A DNA stretch of 63,988 nucleotides, from assembly GCA_903901975.1 (NCBI GenBank), contig CAIUTB010000125.1:1-63988 (forward strand), in the 5' to 3' direction. The translations under genes and the position numbers were made by a program. Shown piece after piece: positions 44,146 through 63,759 of this stretch. This stretch comes from an uncultured Bacteroidales bacterium. Lineage in GTDB: Bacteria; Bacteroidota; Bacteroidia; Bacteroidales; Paludibacteraceae. Positions within the stretch are counted from its first letter, which is position 1; each line of letters begins with the position of its first letter. The notes beneath the pieces were generated by a model. That model ran no database searches, had not been told where the DNA came from, and saw only the letters and a program-made list of their open reading frames with translations.

Positions 44146-44241
44146 TTATTTTACTATTTCAAACTCGCCCTTCAGTTTTATATCTTCGGAACTGCTTCCA
44201 ATCCAAACTTCAAATTTTCCGGGTTCAACTGTCCAATGCAT
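44146..44241 (-). pseudogene. Remnant of a GH3 beta-glucosidase (C-terminal 31 residues)
   Basis: The minus strand encodes WTVEPGKFEVWIGSSSEDIK and then LKGEFEIVK with a TAA at 44146-44148. This is the end of the fibronectin-type-III-like domain that closes GH3 glucosidases (pattern W-EPG-F-V-GSSS-DI-L). All catalytic domains are gone. The reading frame stops matching at 44236-44241, exactly where the plus-strand regulator fragment begins. This is a truncated gene and cannot be active. Confidence 0.7.
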
Positions 44242-44934
44242 GTGTTGGAAGCAAATAATGGTAAAATTGGCTATCAGATAGCTGTTAGTAAACATCCCGA
44301 TTTAATACTCAGCGATGTAATGATGCCCGAAATGAATGGAAATGAACTATGTACTAAACTGAAGAGTAATTTCGAAACCTGTCATATTCCGGTGGTACTT
44401 CTGACCGCTCAAACAAGCCTTGAGCAAAACCTGGATGGGTTAAAACGAGGCGCTGACGACTATATAACCAAACCTTTTAATGTTAATATATTGGTTACAC
44501 GTTGCAGTAATTTGCTGATGAGCCGAAAAGTGCTGCAGGAAAAATTCAGCAAACAAATTGACAATTCTGCTTTTACAATCGCAACCAACGAATTAGACCA
44601 GGCATTTATTGAAAAGATTATCAGCATCGTAGAAGCACATATTAGCGATGAAAAATTAGATGTCGATTTGCTCTGTTCCGAAATGGCTATTGGCAGACGT
44701 GTATTTTTCTATAAAATGAAAAGTATCACCGGCCAGACCCCCAATGACTTTATCCAGAATATCCGCCTGAAAAAAGCGGCCTGGATTCTACAAAATGTAC
44801 CGGATAAAACCATCAGCGAGCTTTCTGAAGAATTGGGTTATAATTCAGTGAGTTATTTTGGCAAGTGCTTTAAAGCTAAATTTGGGGTTCTACCCTCGGA
44901 ATACCGAAATAATAAGATCGAAACACAAGAGTGA
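44236..44934 (+). pseudogene. Truncated hybrid two-component regulator (receiver + AraC HTH)
   Basis: The fragment begins inside the receiver domain (HVLEANNGKIGYQIAV) and keeps DLILSDVMMPEMNG with the phospho-acceptor Asp27, LLTAQTS and TKPFN (Lys79). A complete AraC-type DNA-binding domain follows (residues about 125-228, ending SYFGKCFKAKFGVLPSEYR). The first strand with the acidic pocket residues, the histidine kinase, and the periplasmic sensor of the parent (normally about 1300 residues) are missing. It could still be translated from ATG 44236 as a 232-residue protein, but it lacks metal-binding acidic residues and its own promoter. Confidence 0.8.
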
Positions 44935-45005: not shown

Positions 45006-47192
45006 TTATTTTACAATTTTCATTTCATTCAACACATATCCCGAAGGTGAATATTTATCTAAAACAAAGAGTAAATATCGGACATCAAGCGTAATACTGC
45101 GACTTAATTCAGGAAGATAGCAATAATCGGAAGCAACCCCTTCGGCCATGCGGTCAAAATTTAAGCCAACCATTTCGCCTTTAGCATTGAGAACGGGACT
45201 TCCGGAATTACCACTGGAAGTATGACAATTGGTTAGGAAGCAGGTTCGAACAGTTCCGTTTAAAGCATATTTTCCAAAATCTTTTTTTGTATAAAGTTCG
45301 CGCATTTTCTTGGGGATATAGTAATCCTCATTCCCTGAGTTTTTCTGACTCTTTTCAAAAACACCATTCAGGGTACTGAAATAAGTATAAGTCATACCAT
45401 CTGCAGGAATACTGCCGGTCACTTTTCCATACGAAAGTCGTTGCGATTGATTTGCATCGGGACAATATAGCAGACCTTTGTTTTTCTCCATCAGGGCTTG
45501 CATGTACAATTTATAGTATTTCGATTGTTGCTCCTGCATACGTTTTAGCGGTCCTGAAATTTTTTCGATATATCCTTTATAATAGCTTAATGCCATTTTG
45601 TAAACCGGGTCATTGGTAAGCATTTCAATCGTAGTACTATCAACTTTTTCCAAAAAAGCATCCATTTTAGCTTTATTGGTCAGAATAGATTTGCTGAATG
45701 CATCATTCGTGTATTTATCCACATCACCATCAAATGGAGCTAAAGCCTGTGTCATTTCTTCTGTAATAAATTTCTTATTCACATTCTCGTAAAAACGATA
45801 AAGCAGGCGGCAATAAATCTGTTTATCAAGCTCATAATCCCAGTTTGTAAAGAATTGATCTGACAGCGGTTTAATCCGCTTTGCCTCTCCTGCAATAGCT
45901 TTCTGATTAATTTTAGTACGCTTAAACATCTGCACCAGTTTTTCAAATTTTCCGGCAAATGGAATCACCTCAGCACCATTTATACCAGCTTCATTGAAAT
46001 AGGTATCAGCCAATTTATAGGGTTTCAAATCAACGTAGATCTTCTTTTGAACATCCATTATCTCGCCATATTTTTTTAGGCGGGAAGAATCGGCATGAAT
46101 CCAGTTCATCAACTCTTTTTCTTCAGCTAATTTCTTGTTTAGCAAATCCATCCGCTTGATTCCGGCGAGCTCACCTTTCCAGCGCAGATAGCTGTTGGCT
46201 ATTGAATTAACCCTGGCGGTATACCTAAATTTACTTCCGGGATTTTGTTGAATAGAACTTTTAATCAACGATAATTTTTCTCCACGAATGCCTATCTCAG
46301 CCGGTAACTCTTCATTTTCGAGATATTCAATGGCAAACGACGGTATATATAACTTGGAATGAGCCGGATAACCCATTACCATTACAAAATCATTTTCTTT
46401 TACCCCGGCAAGGGAAATTTTAAGAAACGGATTGCCTGTGAGTGGGACATTTTCTTTATTGTATTTCGCCGGATTATTATTTTTGTCGGCATACACCCGA
46501 ATCAGCGAAAAATCACAAGTATGGCGTGGCCAGGTCCAGTTATCGTCATCACCCCCAAATTTACCCATAGTCATAGGCGGTGCAGCCACCATCCGAACAT
46601 CTCTGTAAATGCGGTAAACCGACAAAATAAACTGATTTCCGGCCATAAACGAAGCCACCTGACCTTCGAGTTTTTTACCTTTCGTGAAGCGTTTTACAAT
46701 TTCTTTTCCTCTTTCATTAATCGTGTTCGATTTCTCACTTACTGACATGGTATCCGTTCCGGCAAGTAATTCATCGGTTACATCCAGCATTTGAACCAGT
46801 TGTGACACCTGCAATCCGAAACAATTCGATTCTTCGTCGTTTTTTTGCGCCCAATAGCCAAATTTCAGAAAGTCTTTTTCCTTGTTGGATAATATTTCAA
46901 TATACTTAATCATCGGGTGATAATTAGTAACCATCAATCCTTTATCCGAAATAAAACTGGCGGTACAAAACGGATCAAATTCGTTGTTTTCGGTGGTTAA
47001 TCCCACCACTGCATCTTTCAGACAGACTATGTTGATACTGTAAATATCTTCGGCAGATAATTTCAGACCGGCTTTGCGCATTTGCGACAAGTTTTGCGAA
47101 ATGGTCAACGGAAGCCACATGCCTGAATCGGCCACAGCCTGAAAACTGAATGCACCAATCAACAGTGCAAACATTAAATTTTTTATTCTCAT
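45006..47192 (-). CDS. S46 dipeptidyl-peptidase, DPP11-like but with a changed histidine motif
   Basis: S46 peptidases release dipeptides from the N-terminus of oligopeptides in the periplasm. The 728 residues start with a signal peptide (to AVAD). The catalytic Asp227 is in RHTCDFSLIRVYAD, and the catalytic Ser663 is in SSGNSGSPV. NFDR places Arg681 exactly 18 residues after the serine, the spacing of the Arg that gives DPP11 its preference for Asp/Glu at P1. The histidine motif, usually TNHHC, is TNYHP (His92 kept, first His and Cys lost). It ends a nine-gene tandem array, separated from the metalloprotease gene by 114 bases with repeat copy H. Confidence 0.9.
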   Translation of the reverse strand: MRIKNLMFALLIGAFSFQAVADSGMWLPLTISQNLSQMRKAGLKLSAEDIYSINIVCLKDAVVGLTTENNEFDPFCTASFISDKGLMVTNYHPMIKYIEILSNKEKDFLKFGYWAQKNDEESNCFGLQVSQLVQMLDVTDELLAGTDTMSVSEKSNTINERGKEIVKRFTKGKKLEGQVASFMAGNQFILSVYRIYRDVRMVAAPPMTMGKFGGDDDNWTWPRHTCDFSLIRVYADKNNNPAKYNKENVPLTGNPFLKISLAGVKENDFVMVMGYPAHSKLYIPSFAIEYLENEELPAEIGIRGEKLSLIKSSIQQNPGSKFRYTARVNSIANSYLRWKGELAGIKRMDLLNKKLAEEKELMNWIHADSSRLKKYGEIMDVQKKIYVDLKPYKLADTYFNEAGINGAEVIPFAGKFEKLVQMFKRTKINQKAIAGEAKRIKPLSDQFFTNWDYELDKQIYCRLLYRFYENVNKKFITEEMTQALAPFDGDVDKYTNDAFSKSILTNKAKMDAFLEKVDSTTIEMLTNDPVYKMALSYYKGYIEKISGPLKRMQEQQSKYYKLYMQALMEKNKGLLYCPDANQSQRLSYGKVTGSIPADGMTYTYFSTLNGVFEKSQKNSGNEDYYIPKKMRELYTKKDFGKYALNGTVRTCFLTNCHTSSGNSGSPVLNAKGEMVGLNFDRMAEGVASDYCYLPELSRSITLDVRYLLFVLDKYSPSGYVLNEMKIVK

Positions 47193-47206
47193 TGGATTTG
47201 TTTTTT

Positions 47207-47232
47207 GCCCCCTAACCCCCTAAAGGGGGAAT
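47207..47232. repeat. GC-rich palindromic repeat, copy H
   Basis: Forward-orientation copy with CCCCCTAAAGGGGG, between the metalloprotease stop (47307) and the S46 start. It has no inverted partner nearby. Confidence 0.75.
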
Positions 47233-47306
47233 GGAGAAATGTTTCTTATTTTATTATCATGCCCTTATATTTCATGGATTTATATATTGGTCATGGGTAT
47301 TTTAAT

Positions 47307-49733
47307 TTATTTCGTTACTTTTTCTATCAAACTCAAAATCAACCTGTAATGACCTGCATTTTGTGGTTGTGCCTGTAAAAGCTCATTTACACGGGCAGTC
47401 GTTGCAATAAGCTGAGTGGCTGCTGCAGATGCCCAAAGTGTTTCGTTCATACTCTTACTTTCATTCATTTTATCGGAACTGTACATCGGACGAATTAATG
47501 AAATTAATTTATCAATATAAACCAACTGAATATGTTTGTCCGCCCTTGTTAAAACAGGCTGAGCTGTACTTTTCCAAAGCTGATTATCCAGGTCTATCAG
47601 GTATTCGGTCAATGAATAAGCGTTGGTGGAAACCAAGGTTTCCGAAGCAGTTAATCTGCTCAACACAAAATTCCCAAGCAACGCGCCAATCACATTCGAT
47701 TGGAGTTTCATCACATCATCGGTTTGTGAACCAATGTATTTATTCAATTCCGGTTGGTCGAGCCAATCGCAGGTCGTTATTTCTTTCAATGCAAATCCTA
47801 TTGTTTCCTGCTGTTTCGCTTTTTCCACCGGAACATATTTAGCCGGAAATTGCCCCATCGTTCCCTGATAGGTATATACGCCACCTAAATAGGATATGGG
47901 AAAAGATACCAGTCTATCATACAATTTGTTGATTCCTTCAAATCTTTTGGTAAGTAATTCTAAGTCATCGCCTTCACTAAAAGTCCATTTCAGCAGATTT
48001 TTGGTCGTGATTTTAAGGTTTGAAATCCCGTACAGCGACGATTTAATCAGATCATTTCCAAGCATATCGGTTTGAGAGGAAGGATCGGGTGAAACCTGCG
48101 AAATAATGGCCGGAGCAAAAAGATACATCGGATTATTCCCTTTATCTACGAACCATTTATTGAGGGTTGTTTTCTCATCTTCAGGTGTTTTTGCACTGTA
48201 AATGGGGACATATCCCCATTTGATAGCAAAATAATCGTAAGGACCAAGAATCGGCGGCGAAAGACGTACGCCTTTTTCTTTATCGCCGGGTTGCGCCACG
48301 TAATTACTGCGGGCATAATCCATGATACTGGCAGTTGTTCCGTACTTTTTAGTAAATGCCGGTGAACGAAGCGAATCAACCGGATATGCATACGAGCCCC
48401 GCATATTGTGCTGAAGTCCAAGTGTATGACCGGTTTCGTGAGCCACCGCATAACGAATCGTTTCACCCATGAATTTTTCGTCCAGCACCTTTTTTCGTGC
48501 GTCGGGATCAACAGCTGAAGTTTGAACAAATTTCCAGGTTTGTAACAAATCAATCACATTGTGCCACCAAAGTATATCAGCCTGAATAATTTCACCGCTT
48601 CGTGGGTCAATCCATTGCGGACCGGAAGCATTGGCTTCAGTCGAAGTAATATAGCGGAAACAGGAATTGCGGATATCTTCCGAGTCGAAATTTGGATCGC
48701 GTGGATAGTCTTTCGCTACAATAACGTTCTTAAAACCAATTTCTTTGAATGCCAGATTCCAGTCTTCAATTCCCTGCCGGACATAGGTCCGCCAAACTGA
48801 TGGCATCACGGTATCTACATAATAAATCAGCTGTTTTTTGGGTACAACCAATTCACCGCGTTTATATTTTGCTACATCCTCATCGCGTGGTTCAATGCGC
48901 CAACGATCAATTATCTTGAGCGATAGTTCAGGTTTTTCCGAAACGTATTTTCGCTTATTCTCAGCACTGTAGCCAATTCGCTCGTCGGAAAAACGAACTT
49001 TCATAGGAACTTTTGGAAGCAAAACAAAGGAGTAGTTTACAGTAATACAAAATGGTTCTTTCCCTCCAACGAAATTGTAGTACGATTTTACTTCCACATT
49101 TTGAGGAAAAGATTTCATTTCCAGAATCTGACTGGCTTTGGAATCTAAATGCCCACTGCCACCCACTCCGGCGGGAAAAACCAAATCAACTTCAGAAGAG
49201 AAAAATTTGGTGACATCAATCAGTGAGGCGTCATTTTTTTCATTTCGAGATATTATGTCGAACGAAATAGCAACCGGAGTAACATTATTCCGGGCTAAGG
49301 ATGCCGAAATCGGGTCTTTGGGGTCGGCATACGAAATTCCCGTTGGCTGATTAATAAACAGGTATTTATCACGACGGCTGAAGTAAATCAGCACCGGATT
49401 AGCACGCATTTGTCCGGCTGAAATTTTGGAATTATCGCTAACGCTGACCACCCGTGCTGCAATGAGCATATCACGACCAAGCACAGAGTCAGGCACTTCC
49501 AGATAATAGCTTGCCAATTTGGTTTTGTAGATATTGAAAAGTCCGTTTGTAACTTTCGCTCCAGCCGTAATTTTGGAAAAATCTTTCAATTTAGTTGCTG
49601 TCGAAGCAGAATCGGACGAAGCCGTATTGTCGGAACCAGATGTTGAAGTTATTACACGACCGTGCGTACGTTGTCCATATGAAAATGAACAAAAAATAAA
49701 AAATAGGCTTAGAAAAATAAGTTTGATTTTCAT
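47307..49733 (-). CDS. Secreted zinc metalloprotease (DUF5117/DUF4953 family)
   Basis: The 808-residue protein has a signal peptide (to FSYG). A long N-terminal DUF5117/DUF5118-like region (LASYYLEVPDSVLGRDMLIAARV) leads to a metzincin-like core: AHETGHTLGLQHN with zinc ligands His432, His436 and His442 and base Glu433, and a Met-turn SIMDY at 469-473. The DUF4953 C-terminal part is helical. Substrates of this family are unknown. It is 13 bases after the barrel protein gene, so surely in the same transcript, which ties it to the TonB receptor system. Confidence 0.92.
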   Translation of the reverse strand: MKIKLIFLSLFFIFCSFSYGQRTHGRVITSTSGSDNTASSDSASTATKLKDFSKITAGAKVTNGLFNIYKTKLASYYLEVPDSVLGRDMLIAARVVSVSDNSKISAGQMRANPVLIYFSRRDKYLFINQPTGISYADPKDPISASLARNNVTPVAISFDIISRNEKNDASLIDVTKFFSSEVDLVFPAGVGGSGHLDSKASQILEMKSFPQNVEVKSYYNFVGGKEPFCITVNYSFVLLPKVPMKVRFSDERIGYSAENKRKYVSEKPELSLKIIDRWRIEPRDEDVAKYKRGELVVPKKQLIYYVDTVMPSVWRTYVRQGIEDWNLAFKEIGFKNVIVAKDYPRDPNFDSEDIRNSCFRYITSTEANASGPQWIDPRSGEIIQADILWWHNVIDLLQTWKFVQTSAVDPDARKKVLDEKFMGETIRYAVAHETGHTLGLQHNMRGSYAYPVDSLRSPAFTKKYGTTASIMDYARSNYVAQPGDKEKGVRLSPPILGPYDYFAIKWGYVPIYSAKTPEDEKTTLNKWFVDKGNNPMYLFAPAIISQVSPDPSSQTDMLGNDLIKSSLYGISNLKITTKNLLKWTFSEGDDLELLTKRFEGINKLYDRLVSFPISYLGGVYTYQGTMGQFPAKYVPVEKAKQQETIGFALKEITTCDWLDQPELNKYIGSQTDDVMKLQSNVIGALLGNFVLSRLTASETLVSTNAYSLTEYLIDLDNQLWKSTAQPVLTRADKHIQLVYIDKLISLIRPMYSSDKMNESKSMNETLWASAAATQLIATTARVNELLQAQPQNAGHYRLILSLIEKVTK

Positions 49734-49746
49734 TATTCAATGTTTT

Positions 49747-51351
49747 TTAAAAACTAATAATACCGATAGAAATACCCAGAAGCATCCAAGAACCACGACC
49801 GACACTTAACTGATTAGCATAAAATGCTTTAGCAAAACCACTTAACTTGCTATTCTTCATTTTCAATGGAAAGCTATACCGTACATCAATTCGATAATCA
49901 TACACATTTTGTCTATAATAATCCAAATCAGGTATTAATATCTCTGTTGCAATTTTATGGGTGGCTTTTTCAAACATGGATGATCCGTTATTTGGAATTG
50001 TACTTGCAATAGGATTTAATTGGAGGTTGTTATATAATCCGAATCCGAATCCAGTTTTAGCATTCACATTAACACGGTGTCCGTTTTTATTTAAAACCCG
50101 AATACCATAACTTGCTCCCAGATGCAATCTCTGACTTTCAAAGACCGAATAGGGCAAATAATATTTATTGCTAAATCCGGTAAGCTGTGCATCTACAGCT
50201 GCTAGCCATGAATAATCAGTTCCCTTGTTGAGCAAATCCCGAAGACTAATACTTATATCGGCATTGTACGAATCAGTTGTATAACGATCTTTGTAAATAT
50301 AAAGTGTCTCCCAACGTCTTGAAACGCTACCATTGCTAGTATCACGTACTTCAATTGATTCCTGTAAAAATTCATCAGCAGCTCCGTAATTGTAAACACC
50401 TTTTAAAGAAATGTTTAATAATCTGTTGTCGGATTTAATAGTTGCTACAGATTTTATAGCGTATTTCTTTTCGGCATACGATCCGGGACTTTCGTGTTCG
50501 CTCCCAAAAATTTGTTGGTTTCTGCTCACATATTCAATACTGTTGAACAAATTAATCTGTTCAGTACCGTAATTATGTTGTAAACCAACCGAATAGATCA
50601 TGTTAATAAACTGACGATCAAAACCATTATACCCATCAATTACTGCTGAAGTATTTTCGTTCCCCAAAAAGTTGTAGTAGTTAATTATTGGATCGGATTG
50701 AACGTTTGAAATACCCGGCATTTTTTCTTTTTCGAACCGAATACCCATTGTTAATCCCAAAGTATGATGTGTAGAAAAACGGTAAGAAACTGATGGAATT
50801 ACAGCGTAGTTTACAACAAATGAGCGTGTTCTGGCATCACGCAACCTCGACATATCACCTGCATAATAATCAATACCAGCTCCAATTGCCCAACGGTTAC
50901 CAATTTTGCGGCTGAATTTGGCATGAAGATCAAAACTCTGAGTATCATAATTGCCTTTGATACTATCGCCAAAATTGTAAGGTGAAGAATTGTAGGTATT
51001 GAATACGTTAGACCAGCAACGATCTGTTTCGGTTTTCATTTGAAATTCAAAACTTCCCCACACCAACCAGTTTTTACTCATTTTATCATATCGTTCGGAG
51101 ATAAAGCGAAGTCCGTTCAATCGGTTTCCTTCCTGCGCACGATGATAATCTCCTCCGTAATCCTGATACCCCAATTCTGTATTACCATGAACGGGAATAT
51201 CATTAATACTTAAACCCGAAGCGTTATTTGAATTTAACCATTGATTTTTAAGCAAGACAAGTTCATGTTGCTCGGGATAAAAAACACCCTGAGCATAAAT
51301 AACTGAAATTGAGCATAAAAAAATGCTGACGAAAACTATAAAATTGCGCAT
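49747..51351 (-). CDS. Outer-membrane beta-barrel protein, DUF6850-like
   Basis: The 534 residues begin with a signal peptide (SISVIYAQ) and then form alternating amphipathic strands with aromatic girdles (WLVWGSFEFQMKTET, SFVVNYAVIPSVSYRF, HRVNVNAKTGFGFGLYNN), ending WMLLGISIGIISF with a terminal Phe. This is the picture of an outer-membrane barrel. Genes of this type sit next to DUF4876 lipoproteins and TonB receptors in Bacteroidetes. No enzyme signature is seen. It lies 49 bases after the DUF4876 gene and 13 before the metalloprotease gene. Confidence 0.75.
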   Translation of the reverse strand: MRNFIVFVSIFLCSISVIYAQGVFYPEQHELVLLKNQWLNSNNASGLSINDIPVHGNTELGYQDYGGDYHRAQEGNRLNGLRFISERYDKMSKNWLVWGSFEFQMKTETDRCWSNVFNTYNSSPYNFGDSIKGNYDTQSFDLHAKFSRKIGNRWAIGAGIDYYAGDMSRLRDARTRSFVVNYAVIPSVSYRFSTHHTLGLTMGIRFEKEKMPGISNVQSDPIINYYNFLGNENTSAVIDGYNGFDRQFINMIYSVGLQHNYGTEQINLFNSIEYVSRNQQIFGSEHESPGSYAEKKYAIKSVATIKSDNRLLNISLKGVYNYGAADEFLQESIEVRDTSNGSVSRRWETLYIYKDRYTTDSYNADISISLRDLLNKGTDYSWLAAVDAQLTGFSNKYYLPYSVFESQRLHLGASYGIRVLNKNGHRVNVNAKTGFGFGLYNNLQLNPIASTIPNNGSSMFEKATHKIATEILIPDLDYYRQNVYDYRIDVRYSFPLKMKNSKLSGFAKAFYANQLSVGRGSWMLLGISIGIISF

Positions 51352-51400
51352 AAATCTATAATTTGTATAGCACTAATAGTTGTATATTTTACTTATTTCT

Positions 51401-52627
51401 TTATTGGTTCAGCAGAGCTTTATCATATTTTCTAGGAGTAGGATCGGTCAGATTTATCATGTCATTCTGGCTATTATTGGTGTCAATCAAATACACACGA
51501 TCTGCCGTCGATTTTCTGGTATCCACTTTCCGTTCTATACTTTCATGGTTTAAACCACTAATTGAAGAAATGTTCATATAACCCGCATCGATGAAATTTT
51601 GAAGTCTTTTTGAGTTCGGGTCAATCCCGGTAGTTCGGTACGAAAGTATTTCCACTCCATCAAAAACCACGCTCGATGGCAACCGCATAAACATATTTCC
51701 AGAAGTTTTTCCGGGAGGATAATCAATGGGATAATTCGACACATTATCCTTTGTTGAAATCAAACACAATGAATTTATACCACCCCGTTGTAAATTAATT
51801 TCGCGAATGGCAATATAGGCTGAATATACCTGAATCATTCCGGGAATATTATCATTATTAGGATATTTAGTGCCTTTAAACTCAAAGTCTGCATTTTGTA
51901 AATCCACCGAAGTTGGCGCAACAAATGTATGATTGCGGGCACTATTAGCAATGACAATACTTTTACCGGGCATAACTTTATAATCTTTCCCTGTCCCCGG
52001 GAAACGATATACTTGCCGTGCATGTAATGCTGTTGGGTTAAGCGAAGCAGGAAAAGCCATTGGACTATCACCTTCAACCAACATTAAATAGATACTATCC
52101 ATGTACTGAATTTCGTCAGAATTATTGAATATTTCTACATAAACATCCGCATCATACCGGGCATTATTTATATCGCGAGTGCCTGAAGCATATACTTTGC
52201 TAATAAGTAGACTTTGTTTGAGTGACAGGTTAGTTGGTAATTCAATAGATTGTTCGGTAAAGACAGACATTTTGGACTTAACACCTCCAATCAGGGCTGG
52301 TTTACTTTCCACTAATGTGTCGGCAATTGCCACATATTCATCACCGCTAAGTTCCCATGAAGCATAAACATTATAAATATCAGGGATAATGTCTGTAAAT
52401 TCAGCAACACCTTCATCATTTGTTTCACCAGTGTAGGTCATCCTATCACTTCGTAAGGTAACAATTCGATGAGCAAATTTTATTTCTTTTTTAATTCCCG
52501 AAGGCATTATCACAGACACGACACATTTCGAAACTTTGGAATGAAGATTCTCCTGTTGACATGAAATGAACATTGCCAATGAGACATATAGAATGATAAA
52601 GTATTTTAATAATTTGAATAATTTCAT
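51401..52627 (-). CDS. DUF4876 surface lipoprotein
   Basis: The 408-residue lipoprotein has a lipobox FISC. Residues about 30-110 look like a small beta-sandwich (KCVVSVIMPSGIKKEIKF, GETNDEGVAEFTDIIPDIYNVYASW). The remainder matches the DUF4876 layout, with SKVYASGTRDINNARYDADVYVEIFNNSDE, GKSIVIANSARNH and ERKVDTRKSTADRVYLID; the middle resembles lamin-tail-like folds. Its position directly after a TonB receptor gene (20 bases) suggests a ligand-binding or capping partner of that receptor, in the way SusD serves SusC. That is inference. Confidence 0.8.
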   Translation of the reverse strand: MKLFKLLKYFIILYVSLAMFISCQQENLHSKVSKCVVSVIMPSGIKKEIKFAHRIVTLRSDRMTYTGETNDEGVAEFTDIIPDIYNVYASWELSGDEYVAIADTLVESKPALIGGVKSKMSVFTEQSIELPTNLSLKQSLLISKVYASGTRDINNARYDADVYVEIFNNSDEIQYMDSIYLMLVEGDSPMAFPASLNPTALHARQVYRFPGTGKDYKVMPGKSIVIANSARNHTFVAPTSVDLQNADFEFKGTKYPNNDNIPGMIQVYSAYIAIREINLQRGGINSLCLISTKDNVSNYPIDYPPGKTSGNMFMRLPSSVVFDGVEILSYRTTGIDPNSKRLQNFIDAGYMNISSISGLNHESIERKVDTRKSTADRVYLIDTNNSQNDMINLTDPTPRKYDKALLNQ

Positions 52628-52647
52628 AGAATTACTTATTTTTCAAT

Positions 52648-55431: not shown

Positions 55432-55450
55432 AAATCTTTTTTTGAAAAAG

Positions 55451-57109
55451 CTACTTTACAAAAACTTTAGAAACAGAAGCTCCAATCTTAATAAAATAAA
55501 TTCCACCAGTGAGTGTAATTGAATTCTGTCCTGCAACTGAATCCATTGATTTCACACACTGTCCTGTAACAGAATATACTTTCACTTTTTCAACTGAAGC
55601 AGTTTCAAACCTTACTTTTCCATCGGAAACGGAAAGATTTAGAATTGAAGGAGTAGAAAGACCGGTTGGGTCTTTAAATGCAACATCTAAATCGGCTGCA
55701 TTACGGGTAAACAAGTAAGGAGTAGTTACAACCGAACTGTTTTTTGCAATCAAACAAATTATATTTCGTTGAGCAGGAATAATTGTATTGATATAATCGG
55801 GATTAGGCATTCCACTGGGGGTACGGAAAGTAGTAGTGGTAGTTGCCATCGAAGCATCATGGATTACATATGGTGAATTTGGTCCAAATGTTTTTGTTCC
55901 ATTGGCTTCATCAAAAGTCAAATTATTAATTTGAACCAACTGGTTGAGTCTGTTCGGAACATCTACCAGGCTTACAACAGGAGCTGTAATTGTATTTCCG
56001 GTCGAAACAACTGTAAAATCGTTATATGGATAAAGCTGAGGCGTGTCGTTTATACGGTTAACCTGAGCTATAATATTACTAATTTTATCACCAGCATTAT
56101 TCGTCAATGTAGTATATCTATAAGTATCTGATATTAGTATTCCGGCAGTATTATCCTGTAAAAATAATGTTTTATAAGTAGCAAGATAAGAAACTGTTAC
56201 GATAGCTTCACCTGAATATTTATAATACGTAAGGTTTGTACCTGTTGTTGCCATTTTGCTATATAAGGCTGCTAAATTATCCACTAGCTCAGGGAAACTA
56301 ATCAACACCACTTCTTCACGACTATCAACTTTCCCTGCAGCAATAGCGATAGCTCTGATTTTGGTTGTGGAAGTAATGTTTAAGGGCGAAGAATATACTG
56401 ACGAAGCAGTTGTAGGTGCACTGCCATCGGTACTGTAATAAATCGTTGCACCGGCAGTTGCAGAAGTAATTGATACAGATTGTGCTGTTTCGTAAATTCC
56501 AGTTATAGAAGAACTTACTGGTATTGCGGTTTGTTCAGTTCCGAAATCGCTAATCTGAAAATCATCAATATTAACCTGTTCGTTAGCATTATTTGGAGTG
56601 CGTAATGTCATAACAATTTTAAATCGTATATTCCCATCGTAATTCACGGCTAACGAATAAGTGAGGAAAGTTCCACTCCATTTTGGAACTGTTATCGGGG
56701 TACCCGCATTAACCCAATTAACACCACCATCAGTTGATTTCTGAATTGTGAATTCACCTCCACTATGATTAGAATACGAACCATAATTAAATGAAAGTAC
56801 ACCGGCACCTGCTTTATCAAATTTCATAAACATGAAATTCTGATTCGCCAAACCCCTCATTCTCATGGAATAAATGCCATTTATTCTATCATTTTCAGTA
56901 GCGTTTGTTGGCTTAGTAATCCCGGCAGTATTCCAAATGCCTGATGGATAAGTAATGTCTTTTGCAGAATTAGTTGGTGAAGCTATTGATGGACTATCAA
57001 AATTCTCAAAAAGTGTGGCAGCACTAATGTTTAGACTTGCAAAAGCGAATAATACAATGCTAAGAAACTTTGTATATTGTTTATAACGAAGAATATGTTT
57101 TGGTTTCAT
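55451..57109 (-). CDS. T9SS-exported protein with CHB_HEX_C-like and OB-like (DUF5689-type) domains
   Basis: The 552-residue protein has a signal peptide (to ISAA) and a jelly-roll-like N-terminal domain (LFENFDSPSIAS...MRMRGLANQNFMFMKFDKAG). A short chitobiase/hexosaminidase C-terminal-like module follows (TSATAGATIYYSTDGSAPT...SPLNITSTTKIRAIAI). Then comes a DUF5689-type OB-like region (LFLQDNTAGILISDT) and a T9SS C-terminal sorting domain (VKVYSVTGQCVKSM, LTGGIYFIKIG, SKVFVK). It is therefore sent to the surface. It ends 19 bases before the TonB receptor start, so they are cotranscribed. No active site is seen; a binding role is likely. Confidence 0.8.
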   Translation of the reverse strand: MKPKHILRYKQYTKFLSIVLFAFASLNISAATLFENFDSPSIASPTNSAKDITYPSGIWNTAGITKPTNATENDRINGIYSMRMRGLANQNFMFMKFDKAGAGVLSFNYGSYSNHSGGEFTIQKSTDGGVNWVNAGTPITVPKWSGTFLTYSLAVNYDGNIRFKIVMTLRTPNNANEQVNIDDFQISDFGTEQTAIPVSSSITGIYETAQSVSITSATAGATIYYSTDGSAPTTASSVYSSPLNITSTTKIRAIAIAAGKVDSREEVVLISFPELVDNLAALYSKMATTGTNLTYYKYSGEAIVTVSYLATYKTLFLQDNTAGILISDTYRYTTLTNNAGDKISNIIAQVNRINDTPQLYPYNDFTVVSTGNTITAPVVSLVDVPNRLNQLVQINNLTFDEANGTKTFGPNSPYVIHDASMATTTTTFRTPSGMPNPDYINTIIPAQRNIICLIAKNSSVVTTPYLFTRNAADLDVAFKDPTGLSTPSILNLSVSDGKVRFETASVEKVKVYSVTGQCVKSMDSVAGQNSITLTGGIYFIKIGASVSKVFVK

Positions 57110-57144
57110 ATTACACAGAATGATGTAGGTTGGAAAATAGATTA

Positions 57145-57184
57145 AATTCCCATCCCCACTTTTTAAAGTCGGGATGGGAATTTG
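57145..57184 (-). terminator. Long hairpin between the two T9SS genes
   Basis: AAATTCCCATCCC / GGGATGGGAATTT (13-base arms) are extended inside by ACTTT / AAAGT after a single C-C mismatch, giving a stem of about 18 pairs with a 2-base TT loop. It lies 21 bases behind the beta-helix gene. The T-run after it is weak, so it may be a partial terminator or an mRNA-stabilising stem that sets differential expression. Confidence 0.65.
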
Positions 57185-57204
57185 AAAGAAATAAGTTAAA
57201 GCAA

Positions 57205-60200
57205 TTATTTGATAAACTTGCTTACTTCATTGTTTACTTTTATCAGGTAAATACCGGCATTCAGATTTCGGTTGAGTGACAAGCTGTTTTTTACTTTGTC
57301 CAACAGAATTCCATTAAGGGTATAAATCTCAATATCAGAGAGTTTGTCACAATTTACAGTTACGCCATTAATAGTAGCCATAATTTTTGCAGCCGTTGAT
57401 ACTGGATTAACTGCTGTAAATACAAATGGAGTTGACTGAAAAGCACCGGCATAAGTAGTTGCACTACGACTAGTACCCAAAAAATCGGTCAAAACCGTTG
57501 CCAAACGAGGAACTGCAAGGTTTGCATCCTGAACTGAACTGCCTGTTAAAGTAAGATCTCCTGTAAGTTGATTTGTGAAATAAACTGTAGTTGATTTAGA
57601 TGCTGCATCCTGTGTAGTACCACTTGTCCAATTAGTAAGATTTGAGTAATCAGTTGCACCCACAACCCCTATTAAACCGCCCGTTCCAGGAACATTAACC
57701 ACATTATAATTTGAAGTCAATGTAGTATTGTCAACAAGGTTAAATGCATAATGCTTTTGGGTGTTCCCTATAGCATTTGAACGTTCGTTTATAAAAATAT
57801 TGTTCTTAACTTCATCAGTTGAGCTAAATAATACCCTGACAAAAGCACTTGTAGATGTTGTACCTGCTACTCCAACTCCGCTACCAGTTATCAATACAGT
57901 ATTATGATAGAAATTATCATTTTGCGTTATGGCAGTTCCATCTTTTCTAATACCACTAATGCTTATCGCATTTGTGATTCCACTACCCAAACTTATCATA
58001 TTATTCCTTGTTGTAGTCAATCCTCTTGTAATATTAATACCAGAAACAACAGATGCAGTTGCTGAAGATAGCGTTGTGATATTATAAATTTTGTTGTTTT
58101 CAATAGTTGAAGCTCCTGCATTTAAACTATGGAAGTTAATACCATAAGCATCAACAGCAAGACTTGTATTTGAATTCTCCAAATTATAAATGCTATTTCC
58201 AGCAATTACATTTCCTGCACTGTTTGAGTTAATTAGAATTCCAATAAGTGAAGCAGTAATACCTTGGGTTGCAATCACAGTACTACCAGATGTTTTTATG
58301 TCTCTAATAGTATTTGAACTTATGGTATTTACACCAGCTCCATTTTCGTAAATCCCATTGGTTGTACTTGTTCCAGTTGATGAACAAGTTAAATTTGCAA
58401 TCGTGTTCCCTGTTATAGTTGCTGCACCTGCATTTCCAAAGGATAAGCCCCGTAAATTAAATGCTCCAGCAGCATAAGTAGAACCTTTGTGCTCTATGCT
58501 ATTGGCAATTGTAGTACTGCCTATTACATTATTTGTAAAAGTAAGTGCGCCCGCTCCAAGAGTGTTCACAGCGTACAGATGACCTCTGTTTACAGTATTA
58601 TTATAGTCGGCAATGATACCACCAATTTTATTGTTGGAAAAAACTATTGAGACACCTGCTGCAGTAGAAATATTCATTCCTAAAACAGTTGTGCCTGCTG
58701 CAGCTCCTGTAAATTTCACTTTAATTGCACCAGTTGCTGTGGTTGAACCAATTGTATTTCCGGTTACAGTACCTACATTTACAGCTCCAACTTGATGCCA
58801 ATGTCCAATAAAACAATTAGCATTACCAGCGTAATCTGAAGTAATATCAAAGTTTGTAATTGTATTGCCTTGTATGCTTGTGGGAGTAACTGTCCCAACC
58901 TGGGTGTACATTGCATAAGGCCTGATTTGTCCACCGGTTGTAGTCCATGGAGTACCACCTGCATTTGGTGCGGAACCACCAATAAAATTATTTTCGATTA
59001 AATTATTATTTCCCGAAACAATGTAAATTCCATATAAAATTGTAGCTGTTGCCGAATACGCTCTTGCAGCAGTTTGATAAATGCTATTACCTGAAATTGT
59101 CCAATCTGTATTATTTGCACCAATATTTATACCATAGGTTATACTTGTAGATGCACTACCTAAGTAGAAGTCAAAGATGTTATTATTCAATAAGCTATTC
59201 CCATTATTGAATATTACAGCTGTGCCAACCGAACCAACACCTACAGCTGCACCTGCAGCGTTTATATCACAATATTTGATTGTGTTGTTATTATTTCCAA
59301 CTGTTGATGCCGTTGAAAGAAAAATCACTCCTGCACCAGTTGATGGACATTTACCTGTTATAGTACAGTATTGAATTGTATCACTTACAGCATCGTTTAT
59401 AAATCGGATTGTACGTGAAGTGTTGTCTGTCGTTTCTGATTGAGAGATAGTCAGGTTTTTTCCGGCACCCGTCTTGTTAAGTTTTCCTGTAATATTTACT
59501 TTATCAGCACCATTCAAATCAAGAAGAGTACCAATGAAATTACCACCAATAGTTACATTAGAAGCTGTAGGATAAATAGTTAATGAATTCCAAGTGGCAG
59601 TTGCCGGTTGGTTAAGAACGGCCGAAGCAGTTTCAGTAGTATTTGCACCAACTTTAATTTGAATATCTTTTCCTGTTTGGTCGGCTTGTAAGTTAATAGC
59701 ATCAAAAGCAGCTTTCAATGTTGTGTAACCTGTACCATCAGCAATTCCATTTACACCCGAAACAGTAACAGGATTATAGGTGAATGTAGCCACATAATTT
59801 GCACTACTATTTGATAACCAGCTGTCACCTTGACCTGAACCCATACTTTGTGCCCAAACCTGGAGTTGATACGTTGTTCCATATACAAGGCCACTTAATA
59901 AATTAATACTGGAAGCAAGTGTTCCCTGAAAATCATTCCCTCCCAATGCGTTTTGAACCCAAGCGGTCTGAACCGGGGCAACAATTTGTGTCAATCCATC
60001 AGAGGACATGATTTTATAATATAAAAATCCTCCGGTTCTGTCCTGTGTATCGCTCCAGTACTTCATGTCACAACCGTCAATGCTTAATGTAGAAACTGTT
60101 CCTAAATTTGTTCCTTGTAACGCTGTTGCATAAGATGGATCGCCACCAATCCAATACCAACCTGTAGGAGCTGCTGTTCCTGCTCCGTTTACATTAACTT

Positions 60201-60288
60201 TTACATAATCGTTATACCAACCTGTTGCAGCAGTTGCAAACGATATTGCCATTACAATGGCAACAAATAAAAAAGTAAATTTTCTCAT
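57205..60288 (-). CDS. Large T9SS-exported right-handed beta-helix protein
   Basis: The 1027 residues have a signal peptide (to FATA) and an N-terminal beta-sandwich of about 170 residues. A long parallel beta-helix follows, with repeated rungs of the type N-x-I-x-G-N-S-I/T-I (ISGNSIYQT, NNLIENNFIGG, ITGNTIANLTCSS, IAGNSIYNLENSN). The protein ends with a T9SS sorting domain (IEIYTLNGILLDKVKN, LNAGIYLIKVNNEVSKFIK). Composition is rich in Asn, Thr, Gly and Ala with almost no Cys, typical of surface adhesins and polysaccharide-binding helices. No lyase or esterase residues can be pointed to. It follows the FMN-binding gene by 106 bases. Confidence 0.88.
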   Translation of the reverse strand: MRKFTFLFVAIVMAISFATAATGWYNDYVKVNVNGAGTAAPTGWYWIGGDPSYATALQGTNLGTVSTLSIDGCDMKYWSDTQDRTGGFLYYKIMSSDGLTQIVAPVQTAWVQNALGGNDFQGTLASSINLLSGLVYGTTYQLQVWAQSMGSGQGDSWLSNSSANYVATFTYNPVTVSGVNGIADGTGYTTLKAAFDAINLQADQTGKDIQIKVGANTTETASAVLNQPATATWNSLTIYPTASNVTIGGNFIGTLLDLNGADKVNITGKLNKTGAGKNLTISQSETTDNTSRTIRFINDAVSDTIQYCTITGKCPSTGAGVIFLSTASTVGNNNNTIKYCDINAAGAAVGVGSVGTAVIFNNGNSLLNNNIFDFYLGSASTSITYGINIGANNTDWTISGNSIYQTAARAYSATATILYGIYIVSGNNNLIENNFIGGSAPNAGGTPWTTTGGQIRPYAMYTQVGTVTPTSIQGNTITNFDITSDYAGNANCFIGHWHQVGAVNVGTVTGNTIGSTTATGAIKVKFTGAAAGTTVLGMNISTAAGVSIVFSNNKIGGIIADYNNTVNRGHLYAVNTLGAGALTFTNNVIGSTTIANSIEHKGSTYAAGAFNLRGLSFGNAGAATITGNTIANLTCSSTGTSTTNGIYENGAGVNTISSNTIRDIKTSGSTVIATQGITASLIGILINSNSAGNVIAGNSIYNLENSNTSLAVDAYGINFHSLNAGASTIENNKIYNITTLSSATASVVSGINITRGLTTTRNNMISLGSGITNAISISGIRKDGTAITQNDNFYHNTVLITGSGVGVAGTTSTSAFVRVLFSSTDEVKNNIFINERSNAIGNTQKHYAFNLVDNTTLTSNYNVVNVPGTGGLIGVVGATDYSNLTNWTSGTTQDAASKSTTVYFTNQLTGDLTLTGSSVQDANLAVPRLATVLTDFLGTSRSATTYAGAFQSTPFVFTAVNPVSTAAKIMATINGVTVNCDKLSDIEIYTLNGILLDKVKNSLSLNRNLNAGIYLIKVNNEVSKFIK

Positions 60289-60361
60289 AACCTGATAATT
60301 TTAAATGAATAATTGATTAATTTTTTATGATTTGATATTTATTTCAAAATTTAAGCTAGTA

Positions 60362-60369
60362 CAAATATA
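60362..60369 (-). promoter_or_regulatory. Possible -7 element before the beta-helix gene
   Basis: The minus strand reads TATATTTG, 74 bases before the start. The nearest TTTG is only 10 bases upstream, so the promoter is incomplete and this may be an internal start at best. Confidence 0.3.
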
Positions 60370-60394
60370 GTAATAATTTCAAAACGCTGTTGAA

Positions 60395-60928
60395 TTATTT
60401 ATTTTTTGGTAATTTGCTTACCCCTTTACTCAGCATGAAATCTACATTCTTCGTTACAGCTACTACAGTCAGGGTTGCACCGGTAAAACCATCCGGTTTT
60501 ACCGATTTTGCTTCTTTTAATGTTTTACCAACCCAAAGATCAAAAAAACCTTTTTTGGTTAATTTTCGAATATAACTCAATGTTTCCCAATTTGATAACA
60601 AGGCTACTTTTTGAATTACCCAGTTTTTATCGGTAATAATCATTACAGGGGTTAAGTCATTGTATCCTTTCACATTTTTACAAAACGGAACGCTGGACAT
60701 CGCAAACCCTAAGGGTTTGCCTTCATTATTTAAGATACAATACCAATAATCATTCACCTTATCTACTTTAACTGCATCCGAAAAAACACTGGTAACCACA
60801 TCTTTATTGGAAACCTCATGAAAAACAGGTGGCTTTCTCTTTTCTTTAGACTCTTTTTCTTCATTTTCTTGTCCAAAAACTCCACTGGCAAATAGAACCA
60901 GTAGTATTAAAATTGCATTAAACTTCAT
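60395..60928 (-). CDS. Exported FMN-binding protein, predicted to be covalently flavinylated
   Basis: The 177-residue protein has a signal peptide (to GVFG) and an FMN_bind domain. The motif DGFTGATLT at residues 146-154 fits the ApbE flavin-transferase target Dxx(S/T)GAT exactly, so FMN should be attached to Thr152 by a phosphodiester bond. Such domains pass electrons outside the cytoplasm, for example in NqrC and RnfG and in Bacteroidetes redox proteins linked to TonB receptors. There is no membrane span except the signal and no second redox domain. It starts 26 bases after the M16 gene stop and precedes the beta-helix gene. Confidence 0.87.
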   Translation of the reverse strand: MKFNAILILLVLFASGVFGQENEEKESKEKRKPPVFHEVSNKDVVTSVFSDAVKVDKVNDYWYCILNNEGKPLGFAMSSVPFCKNVKGYNDLTPVMIITDKNWVIQKVALLSNWETLSYIRKLTKKGFFDLWVGKTLKEAKSVKPDGFTGATLTVVAVTKNVDFMLSKGVSKLPKNK

Positions 60929-60954
60929 ACTAAACCTTGTCTTTGTTGATTTTT

Positions 60955-63759
60955 TTACTTTTTACTCTCTGGATATAACACTAAACGGGCATAATTTGTT
61001 CCAAAAATTTTCTTTGCAAATTGTTGTAAATCTTTCGATGACAATTGCTCAATTTGCTTGATTTCATCTTTCCCATCAGTGGTTTTAATCCCATTTGCTG
61101 TATTGATTGTCAGTTTATTTACCCAATACGAATTGTTTTTCAGATTTATTTCCAGTTCATTTTTCTGTGCAAGTTTCACTTTAGTTAAATTTGTATCTTC
61201 CACACCGCCCACTTTGACTTTTTCTATTTCTTCCAATGCAGCAGCAATAAGGGTTTCCACATTTTCGGGAGCACATTGAAAAGTGATTTGTTCTACATAA
61301 TTCTCGTAGGGATTATGCACAAACCGGCCACTCGACCGAACTCCATAAACGCCGCTTTTTTTCTCTCTCAGATTCTCCGTAAACTTAATCGTCAGTACAT
61401 CATTCAGGGATTTAAGCAGAAATTCATCTTTGGAGCTAAACTTAATGGCATTGCTAAAAGTCAGGTTCACATTGCTTTTTGAATCTGTTCCTTTATAGAA
61501 AACTTTCTCTACTTTCCCTTTTGGAGGACGAATGCCCAGATCTTTTGGTTTTTCGCGTTGGGAAGTTGCAGGCAAACTGGCAATATAAGTTTGCAAAAGT
61601 ACTTTGATTTTTTCTACTTCGAATGAACCTACTATCACAAAAACAAAATCAGCTGCATTAGCAAAACGTTGATGGAAAATATCGAGCGATTTTTGGATAT
61701 TTACTTTATCTAAATCAGCCGTTTCGGGGAAACCACCACCTCGTGGATTATTACACGATAAGGTCCGTGAAACCTGATCTTCGAAGTATTTCTGAGGATT
61801 CAGTCTCAAGGTTGACAATCCTGATTTCGTCTTCTTGATAAAGGTTTTAAAGACTGTACTGTCAATCCGGGCTTGAGTAAAATACAAATTCGTCAGTTGA
61901 AGAAAAGTCTCTAAATCTTTGAGATTTGTTTTTCCGCTAAGTCCCTCGCTTGTAGCATTCAGAAATGGTGATACCCCTACTTCTCTTCCAATAAATGCTT
62001 TCACTTTATCGCTTTTCGACAAATTTGCTATACCACTTTCGCTTACCAGTGCCGAAGAATATATGGCTGAAAAGAAATCAGCATCGGCGCATAAACTATG
62101 ACCACCTTTACTGTAGGCTATAAACTGAATTTCGTTGTTTTTGAAATCAGTAGGTTTTAGCAGCACTTTTGCACCATTGGATAATGTAAGGGTAGTCAGA
62201 TTTATTGATTCATTTTTTTCTTCCTTCGCGATACTTCCCGCAAGCGGTTTTTGACCTGGCCATTCAAAGGCAATAGTTTTATCTTCTTTTGCTATCAATT
62301 CTGTTTTAGGAATCTGATTCACAATAGTACGCAAGTTGTCTTCGGTTGGCATTTTAATTCCCTCTTTTTCGGGACCTGTAACCACAATAACACGGTTTGA
62401 ATCGGTCAGAAAAGCATTATCAAAACTGTTTACATCTTTTAGCGTAATCGATGGCAGTTGGTTTTTAGTAAATTCATATTCGAAAGGAACACCCGGAATA
62501 GGTTCCTTATTCAGGAAATTTCGTACAAGTTCAGAAGCATATCCATCGGATTCAGATTTTCCCCGTTCGTTATACACGTGGTCGTATTTGTTCAAAATCC
62601 CCTTCTTCGCACGTTCCAGTTCCGATTCCGTAAATCCAAATCGTTTAACCCGTTCAACTTCTTCTAACATGGCTTTCAAGCCTTTTTCCACACCATCCGA
62701 ACTCACCCGGGCAGTTACACTAAATGCATCTTTGTTTCTGGCGATAGCCTGATAACCTGCTTTTGCAGAAATATAGGGTGGATTAGCCGAACGACCAAGT
62801 TCTCCAAAACGTTCGTTTAAAATTAAATGATAGAGCTGTTCAACTATAAATCCCCGATAATCAGCAAGAGTAGATTCGTCGGTATGACCGGTTTTTGAAT
62901 AAAACATGATTTGAGTTTGTGTTGCTTCTTTATCGGTGCTGATAGAGTAGAATGTGGAAGCATGATCCGGCACATCAAATGTTGGACGAGGGCGCTCAGT
63001 GGTTCGGGTAGGAATCGTGTTAAAGTGATCCTTAATCTTTTGTTCGTATTTGTCAACATCAATATCACCAACTACAATTACAGCCATTAAATCTGGCCGA
63101 TACCAGTCAGCATAATAGCGTCGAATAGTTTCAGGTTTGAAACTTTCAATTATTTCCTTTTTGCCTATTGGTAAACGTTGTGCATATTGCGAGTTATGAA
63201 ATATTACCGGATAATATTTGTCCTGCAAGCGTTGGTTAGCTCCCCGACCAATTCGCCATTCTTCGGTTATAACACCTCGTTCACTCTCAATTTCTTTAGG
63301 GTCGAAAGATACATTATGCGCCCAGTCTTCGAGTACTAATAAGGCTTTATCAACCACTTCGTCTTTATCGGTGGGTACCAAAAGACGATAAACAGTTTCA
63401 TTAAAACTCGTATAGGCATTCAAATCTTTCCCAAATTTGATACCTACCGATTGTAGATAACTAATCAATTCATTTTTATCAAAATGCTTTGTTCCGTTAA
63501 AACACATATGCTCAGTGAAATGTGCCAACCCACGCTGATCTTCATCTTCCAGAATTGATCCGGCATTGATTGCTAAACGCATTTCAACACGGTCTTTCGG
63601 CAAATTGTTCTTTCGTAGATAATAAGTTAATCCGTTTGGAAGTTTACCGACTCTAATGTTTTTATCAACCGAAAGTTTATCACTCAGATTATACTCTTGT
63701 GCTATGCCTGAGAAAGAAATTCCAAAGCAAAAAATGATTATGAATTTGATTAATCTCAT
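60955..63759 (-). CDS. M16 (insulinase/pitrilysin-type) zinc peptidase, PqqL-like
   Basis: The 934-residue exported protein (signal to GIAQ) contains two M16 halves. The N-terminal half has the inverted zinc motif HFTEH (His80, Glu83, His84) and the third ligand region in EIESERGVITEEWR. The C-terminal half lacks the motif, as expected, and has the usual substrate-channel region (YKGTDSKSNVNLTFSNAIKF, GVYGVRSSGRF). M16 enzymes digest peptides held in a closed chamber. It is the first gene of the nine-gene tandem array and starts 229 bases from the window edge. Confidence 0.94.
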   Translation of the reverse strand: MRLIKFIIIFCFGISFSGIAQEYNLSDKLSVDKNIRVGKLPNGLTYYLRKNNLPKDRVEMRLAINAGSILEDEDQRGLAHFTEHMCFNGTKHFDKNELISYLQSVGIKFGKDLNAYTSFNETVYRLLVPTDKDEVVDKALLVLEDWAHNVSFDPKEIESERGVITEEWRIGRGANQRLQDKYYPVIFHNSQYAQRLPIGKKEIIESFKPETIRRYYADWYRPDLMAVIVVGDIDVDKYEQKIKDHFNTIPTRTTERPRPTFDVPDHASTFYSISTDKEATQTQIMFYSKTGHTDESTLADYRGFIVEQLYHLILNERFGELGRSANPPYISAKAGYQAIARNKDAFSVTARVSSDGVEKGLKAMLEEVERVKRFGFTESELERAKKGILNKYDHVYNERGKSESDGYASELVRNFLNKEPIPGVPFEYEFTKNQLPSITLKDVNSFDNAFLTDSNRVIVVTGPEKEGIKMPTEDNLRTIVNQIPKTELIAKEDKTIAFEWPGQKPLAGSIAKEEKNESINLTTLTLSNGAKVLLKPTDFKNNEIQFIAYSKGGHSLCADADFFSAIYSSALVSESGIANLSKSDKVKAFIGREVGVSPFLNATSEGLSGKTNLKDLETFLQLTNLYFTQARIDSTVFKTFIKKTKSGLSTLRLNPQKYFEDQVSRTLSCNNPRGGGFPETADLDKVNIQKSLDIFHQRFANAADFVFVIVGSFEVEKIKVLLQTYIASLPATSQREKPKDLGIRPPKGKVEKVFYKGTDSKSNVNLTFSNAIKFSSKDEFLLKSLNDVLTIKFTENLREKKSGVYGVRSSGRFVHNPYENYVEQITFQCAPENVETLIAAALEEIEKVKVGGVEDTNLTKVKLAQKNELEINLKNNSYWVNKLTINTANGIKTTDGKDEIKQIEQLSSKDLQQFAKKIFGTNYARLVLYPESKK

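Follow-up and report, generated by a model that had tools for sequence, protein, structure and literature searches.

RagA-RagB, a pair of the SusC/D type from Porphyromonas, reportedly imports peptides. In Proteobacteria, protease-associated import systems have been described that employ M16 proteases, with other proteases or redox enzymes as alternatives, and the available part of this source (PMC6793856) presents PqqL and FusC as periplasmic and iron-dependent and carries a heading according to which PqqL and YddB fail to sustain growth in LB when iron is limiting. Iron regulation of loci with TonB-dependent receptors is also on record in other genera. In the part available, PMC10434189 lists P. 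gingivalis PG1019-22 as up 20.8-214.5-fold and B. thetaiotaomicron BT3625-33 as up 36.7-128-fold in low iron, BT1933-39 of the latter species, which includes a DUF4876 gene, as induced only 3.5-7.4-fold, and a P. intermedia locus annotated 'TonB-dep. receptor, peptidase', whose membership in the family described below is not established, as up 9.4-72.4-fold. A DUF4876 gene is among the strongly hemin-responsive genes in the available text of PMC10470040, and PG1019 and PG1020 are listed in a transcriptome (PMC10101095, available part). As far as these texts go, DUF4876/receptor loci are among the genes strongly induced by iron starvation in an oral pathogen and in a gut commensal. In the accessible literature, however, we found nothing on DUF6850 and no description of the receptor-DUF4876-DUF6850 core, and what there was on DUF4876 and DUF4857 consisted of expression tables or descriptions of such lists.

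The locus reported here lies in the window, that is, the whole 63,988-nt stretch of DNA that was analysed, which is the entire contig C125 of a Bacteroidales genome (3.97 Mb, 98.6% complete). Its nine genes probably comprise, judging from gene order in relatives, the tail of one system (system 1) and a complete second one (system 2) rather than one unit. Like the Fus pairs (FusA-FusC of Pectobacterium, YddB-PqqL of E. coli), these systems place a TonB-dependent receptor beside a signal-bearing M16 protein of PqqL/FusC size, related loci show iron-responsive expression in the available sources, and proteases or other modules alternate beside the receptor. The FusC/PqqL-type M16 protein, with HxxEH and a signal peptide beside a receptor, is found in system 1; in system 2 a met-zincin and an S46 peptidase take its place. 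The published Fus set, in the part of PMC6793856 available, is FusA-related and proteobacterial, whereas here the partners are DUF4876, DUF6850 and T9SS-type proteins, and M16 is not the only peptidase, S46, met-zincin or C25-like ones occurring too. The receptor shows no detectable likeness to FusA among solved structures: a PDB search with the window receptor (E<=0.1) gave only enterobactin-receptor plug matches. The likeness to RagA-RagB consists of a receptor with a surface lipoprotein and of periplasmic dipeptidyl-peptidases downstream in the pathway, but the lipoprotein here does not belong to the SusD/RagB type: it is a DUF4876 protein and carries a lamin-tail-like domain. With flavinylated extracytosolic electron transfer, as presented in the available part of PMC11334425, the genome shares an FMN_bind protein with an invariant flavinylation motif and an ApbE; here, however, there is a single soluble secreted FMN_bind protein, with no recognised electron-transfer partner beside its gene. 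Finally, the BT3625-33 layout (TonB receptor, DUF4876, PepSY-TM, ABC, DUF4857) matches several loci in our samples, e.g. L035; PG1019-22 and BT3625-33 differ in being listed only as regulated genes, no peptidase being named for either in the available text of PMC10434189.

All nine minus-strand open reading frames of the original prediction are present, in the order it gave and within its range of 13-114 bases for the gaps (from the M16 gene onwards 26, 106, 95, 19, 20, 49, 13 and 114 nt; Table 1). The array is incomplete on the M16 side, where the contig ends 229 bp upstream of the gene. Pfam bore out the family calls for eight genes (M16, FMN_bind, CHB_HEX_C_1, TonB plug, DUF4876, DUF6850, the DUF5118/DUF5117/DUF4953 met-zincin and S46); the beta-helix protein matched no Pfam family and was named by eye, as were the signal peptides and lipobox of the window proteins. 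As to the T9SS sorting domains ascribed to the array, the tails of the CHB_HEX protein (TIGR04183, 21.4 against a cut-off of 23) and of the beta-helix protein (PF18962, 15.2 against 27) score below threshold; the genome does encode SprA, a T9SS protein. The two T9SS proteins of L008, a second locus of the same genome, score 23.1 and 28.3 against a cut-off of 23. Through the receptor, the closest named relatives are Paludibacter and Bacteroidales metagenome assemblies, the receptors of L005-L007 being 66-73% identical.

Table 1. Features of the array and its surroundings in window coordinates.
Feature	Position	Strand	Basis
M16 zinc peptidase of 934 aa with HFTEH; last but one in system 1	60955..63759	-	Pfam, motif, orthologues in L118/L119/L120
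Secreted FMN_bind protein carrying DGFTGAT, a motif of ApbE type; closes system 1	60395..60928	-	Pfam and motif
TATATTTG, promoter-like -7 box of Bacteroidota type, about 74 nt 5' of the beta-helix start; system 2 may begin here	60362..60369	-	
Beta-helix-like protein, probable T9SS tail; opens system 2	57205..60288	-	By eye; homologues in the same place in L006, L007/L122
Strong hairpin in the beta-helix/CHB_HEX gap; whole gap folds at -28.6 kcal/mol	57144..57183	-	Folding
CHB_HEX_C_1/Fn3_assoc protein, weak DUF5689, probable T9SS tail	55451..57109	-	Pfam
TonB-dependent receptor, N-terminal CarbopepD_reg domain, GTG start	52648..55431	-	Pfam; relatives L005-L007
DUF4876 lipoprotein, lamin-tail-like domain	51401..52627	-	Pfam, lipobox, solved relative 4q1z
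DUF6850 protein, probable outer-membrane beta-barrel	49747..51351	-	Pfam; barrel nature inferred
Met-zincin, DUF5118/DUF5117/DUF4953, HETGHTLGLQH	47307..49733	-	Pfam and motif; homologues in L006, L019
DPP11-like S46 dipeptidyl-peptidase; closes system 2	45006..47192	-	Pfam, PDB search, motifs
Repeat arm by the contig end; a similar inverted arm ends C100	63913..63939	-	

The motifs given in Table 1 for the M16, met-zincin and FMN_bind proteins are intact, as is GNSGSP in S46. In PDB searches the M16 protein matched 9ldy (569 bits), PqqL (276 bits) and FusC (139 bits), the likeness to the latter two extending over most of its length, and the met-zincin and FMN proteins gave no match. The lipobox cysteine of DUF4876 is invariant (49/49) and its solved relative, 4q1z, is a putative lipoprotein; a lamin-tail domain was detected at E<=0.1 in 26 of 49 DUF4876 proteins, that of the window (0.0066) lying below the cut-off. 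DUF6850 found only chance-level matches in the PDB, with no credible solved relative. The same holds for the PDB matches of a family of OB-fold-like proteins encountered in related loci, in which one cysteine is invariant (27/27) and a few members give weak Pfam matches that suggest an OB fold. Structure predictions for DUF4876 (pLDDT 31.5) and the receptor (four rows, 34.7) were too low for a fold search.

The order of the array is more than chance, for the seven genes from beta-helix to S46 (beta-helix, CHB_HEX, receptor, DUF4876, DUF6850, met-zincin, S46) recur in window order in L006, where opposite-strand genes lie upstream and neither M16 nor FMN is present. L007 (the same locus as L122) holds the first four genes of this set up to a contig end, L126, L128 and L123 hold parts of it on short contigs, and L019 keeps five core genes of system 2. 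CHB_HEX homologues adjoin the receptor in L006, L007/L122, L123, L126 and L128, and a met-zincin homologue occupies the same place in L006 (71% identical) and L019 (35%). A conserved neighbourhood, on which the original prediction had staked the array, was thus found, the core and its pairing with peptidases recurring across loci.

The other two genes have a different setting. A search of 47 further genomes of the genus found, in four of them, an M16 protein 55-83% identical to that of the window. L118 and L120 share the order receptor-DUF4876-DUF6850-S46-OB-fold-like-M16-FMN; L119 shows S46-OB-fold-like-M16-FMN from the contig start, the part before S46 lying beyond the contig; and L121 follows the same order as far as M16, its S46 being broken into two frames and its FMN gene lying upstream of the receptor on the opposite strand. 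The M16 orthologues of L118, L119 and L120 (83, 80 and 72% identical) lie directly 3' of the S46 and OB-fold-like genes. The predicted association of M16, S46 and FMN with a receptor is accordingly seen in L118, L120 and L121, where all occur together. In the genome of the window, L008 lies on contig C100 and comprises two T9SS-tailed proteins, receptor, DUF4876, DUF6850, S46 and an OB-fold-like protein, after which the contig runs on for 105 bp; the five genes that start with the receptor are 84 (over the 532 receptor residues compared), 81, 71, 83 and 72% identical to those of L118. Given the order in L118 and L120, these identities and those of the window M16 (83%) and FMN (71%) proteins to their L118 counterparts, the M16-FMN pair of the window most probably completes the C100 cluster. 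The two contigs would then probably be adjacent, with the systems in tandem. No overlap was found between their ends, which carry similar repeat arms inverted relative to each other; these may have broken the assembly.

In the relatives examined, the nine genes fall into two sets, M16-FMN and the other seven, and L006 and L118, taken as one genome (G469) by their matching gene map, carry the two systems on different contigs. A single nine-gene operon was rejected on this synteny, the promoter-like box before the beta-helix gene giving weaker support for the rejection. What had been taken as one unit most probably consists of M16-FMN ending the preceding system and of the beta-helix gene opening the next; the picture of three proteases and a flavoprotein sharing one receptor gives way likewise, since it arises from two systems lying side by side at a contig break, each with its own receptor and S46. 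The next same-strand gene after FMN follows at 376 nt in L118, 394 nt in L119 and 614 nt in L120; that of L119 is a weak beta-helix-type homologue (83 bits), which counts against a system boundary.

Both systems belong, by sequence, to a recurrent and widespread core family of predicted outer-membrane import systems. DUF4876 occurs in 48 of 295 genomes of an order sample and in 30 of 150 of a family sample, the window's own genome included. From the order sample 52 loci were examined, covering 57 of the 69 DUF4876 match rows outside this genome (12 rows were left out); from the family sample all 31 such rows were taken, one being already among the loci. Duplicates (L122, L124, L125), FMN-anchored stretches (L009-L015, L068-L076, L106, L107), short loci (L001-L004, L108-L117) and L129-L132 were dropped from the counts. 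Among the 94 loci counted, DUF4876 is present in 91, an adjacent receptor in 87 and all three core genes in 83; there are 86 co-directional runs with receptor and DUF4876, and DUF6850 joins 82 of these. The three core genes of the window are adjacent and co-directional, in agreement with the definition of the family. Near the core, PepSY_TM-type (c8) genes were found in 19 and OB-fold-like (c6) genes in 49 of the 94 loci; PepSY_TM, like the DUF4857 assignment used below, was confirmed by Pfam in one member.

The pairing of peptidases with the core, part of the original prediction, proved recurrent across loci. Peptidases are found in 26 of the 86 runs (S46, M16 or met-zincin in 14, a C25-like HEAT-repeat protein in 12) and DUF4857, accompanied by a gene that looks by eye like an ABC ATPase, in another 26, no run having both. 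This exclusion gives Fisher p values of 1e-5 with all peptidases and of 0.004 without the C25-like proteins, to be read as guides only, the loci being related and some having been picked because of this finding. L044, with M16 and DUF4857 within 10 kb on either strand, is an exception. The 52 runs of the order sample contain S46 in 4, M16 in 3, met-zincin in 1, C25-like proteins in 9 and DUF4857 in 23; for S46 this compares with 0.73 expected (p 0.007) from 2.38 S46 per genome and a mean genome size of 3.4 Mb set by eye. M16 was counted by runs, since the locus-based count takes in opposite-strand matches of 356-418 aa (L038, L049, L056, L064). That either a protease module or a DUF4857/ABC module, but hardly ever both, lies behind a constant gate predicts polypeptide as the substrate in the one case and a small chelate in the other.

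The C25-like protein with HEAT repeats (c7, e.g. L052:5848-8037), seen in the runs of 12 cores, is presumably a member of clan CD; it is so assigned from one sub-threshold Pfam match among six proteins tested and from invariant blocks, the HxHG and DxCxNG positions being conserved in 19 of 19.

The FMN protein of the window combines an FMN_bind domain, secretion as called by eye and a motif, invariant in 9 of 9 FMN proteins, that fits what we take to be the ApbE flavinylation motif, Dxx[ST]GAT; with ApbE encoded in the genome, covalent flavin is predicted. The genome has one ApbE, one FMN_bind match (this protein) and no match to NqrB or RnfD, so that the window protein is the only recognisable ApbE client found; ApbE has been kept although this is the only FMN_bind match. 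No membrane electron donor is encoded beside the gene, and flavoprotein-driven reduction would be a further step of reasoning from these features. Profile searches found neither M16 nor DUF4876 in any of the 18 other FMN-anchored stretches examined (7 from 46 order-sample rows and 11 from 26 family-sample rows, own genome excluded). Within this set, a receptor adjoins FMN on the other strand in L075, and a small CxxCH protein follows FMN in L010.

FMN was rejected as a general part of the core family, one FMN_bind protein having been found near a core in the order sample. This protein (L053:15491-17359), on the opposite strand beside the core, fuses FMN_bind, 4Fe-4S (polyferredoxin) and flavin reductase parts. 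The 'FMN' match of L036 is a flavin-reductase-like protein caught because the profile had absorbed L053, and the locus-based FMN count of 7 was therefore overstated.

Upstream signals were compared in the window and the core runs. The octamer TATATTTG, which fits what we assume to be the Bacteroidota -7 box consensus, recurs ahead of the beta-helix gene of L006 and L007, and in L008 it precedes the 600-aa T9SS gene. TAnnTTTG is absent from the 229 nt that precede M16 and was likewise not found before the receptor or the 612-aa gene of L008; a strict -33/-7 pattern had no match anywhere in the array, and a loose one had none in the 106-nt beta-helix gap. Upstream of core runs, TAnnTTTG is enriched (41 of 85 versus 17.8 expected from approximate shuffles), whereas E. 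coli-type Fur boxes are not (8 observed versus 5.8 expected of 85). The hairpin between the beta-helix and CHB_HEX genes may be an attenuator or mRNA stabiliser. The 9-mer AAATACCTA precedes 9 of 85 runs (0.3 expected from shuffles) and is also scattered elsewhere in the loci. Shared upstream 9-mers were discarded as candidate signals: a palindromic one is confined to a few close relatives, the others are scattered, and none occurs in the array.

We propose, with an even chance of being right, that the window holds the last part of one protease-equipped, TonB-dependent uptake system and all of a second, for Fus-like import of iron- or haem-bearing polypeptides. This proposal draws on the content, order and conservation of the genes, on catalytic and flavinylation motifs that are intact, and on the recurrent core-peptidase pairing. 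Secreted proteins and the DUF4876 lipoprotein would capture an iron-, haem- or metal-bearing polypeptide, presumably at the cell surface, and the receptor would pass it, or a large piece of it, into the periplasm, where M16 or the met-zincin might cut it and the S46 dipeptidyl-peptidase trim the fragments. Handling of the released cofactor would also be periplasmic and would fall, in system 1, to the OB-fold-like and FMN proteins, the latter of which, with its predicted covalent flavin, could reduce ferric iron. A haem-binding ChaN-family protein in a core-M16 cluster (L066) supports the link to haem, and the iron-linked capture and digestion of the original prediction fits the iron-starvation induction of DUF4876/receptor loci in the available published data, although these concern other genera and were matched to the window by annotated families rather than by sequence comparison. 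Against Fus-like import, BT3625-33 has, as listed in the available text, the DUF4857/ABC rather than the peptidase layout. The weaker induction of BT1933-39, the heading on PqqL and YddB, the missing Fur-box enrichment and -33/-7 match, the lack of detectable FusA likeness and the 18 FMN-anchored stretches devoid of M16 and DUF4876 also count against it. The broader notion that Bacteroidota own an independently evolved Fus counterpart is possible but doubtful; it would consist of a receptor-DUF4876-DUF6850 gate for iron-bearing polypeptides, interchangeable M16/S46/met-zincin/C25-like or DUF4857/ABC modules and, in one lineage, a flavinylated last step.

Two serious rivals have to be weighed. 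Receptor and DUF4876 might import oligopeptides as a carbon and nitrogen source, with S46, M16 and met-zincin completing digestion in the manner of RagA-RagB and iron being only a regulatory cue. The S46 protein speaks for such peptide nutrition, its nearest PDB structures being Asp/Glu-specific DPP11 (471 bits). Its domain is full-length, what we take to be the catalytic His, Asp and Ser are kept, and NFDR stands at the presumed DPP11-type (Arg) specificity position; the window protein has TNYHP, whereas 9 of the 12 S46 frames showing this motif have TNHH. In addition, Pfam recognised no redox or metal family in system 2. The strong iron response of DUF4876/receptor loci elsewhere, in the available sources, and the FMN protein, ChaN-family protein or 4Fe-4S polyferredoxin of related clusters make peptide nutrition rather unlikely.

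Alternatively, the core might import free haem or another small metal chelate, the peptidases stripping ligands at the surface or being loosely related to uptake. DUF4857 runs are as numerous as peptidase runs (26 versus 26 of 86), PepSY_TM-type and OB-fold-like genes often lie close to the core, and regulation by hemin and iron is reported elsewhere in the available sources. Such chelate uptake leaves unexplained why four peptidase families replace the DUF4857 module, and we regard it as distinctly unlikely. That unrelated envelope genes are co-directional by accident is highly improbable. The lack of M16 and DUF4876 in 18 of 18 FMN-anchored stretches speaks for it, but the seven-gene order is kept in L006 and the system 1 order in L118, L119 and L120, so that synteny, as read from sequence, refutes it for both gene sets, though the adjacency of the sets could be accidental.

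A divergent DUF4876 subfamily (L080-L091) shows the order OB-fold-like, DUF4876, receptor, DUF6850, and proteins of about 660 and 100 aa are often added after DUF6850. Pfam, applied to L081 alone among these loci, shows the added proteins to be a second receptor and an HMA-type protein; because they follow the core, metals other than iron are possible.

Just downstream of the array, positions 44147-44934 are likely a deletion scar, in which a minus-strand 3' remnant, resembling what we take to be the end of a GH3 beta-glucosidase, abuts the plus-strand 3' remnant of a hybrid two-component regulator, whose receiver begins at profile position 24 and is followed by an AraC-type HTH.
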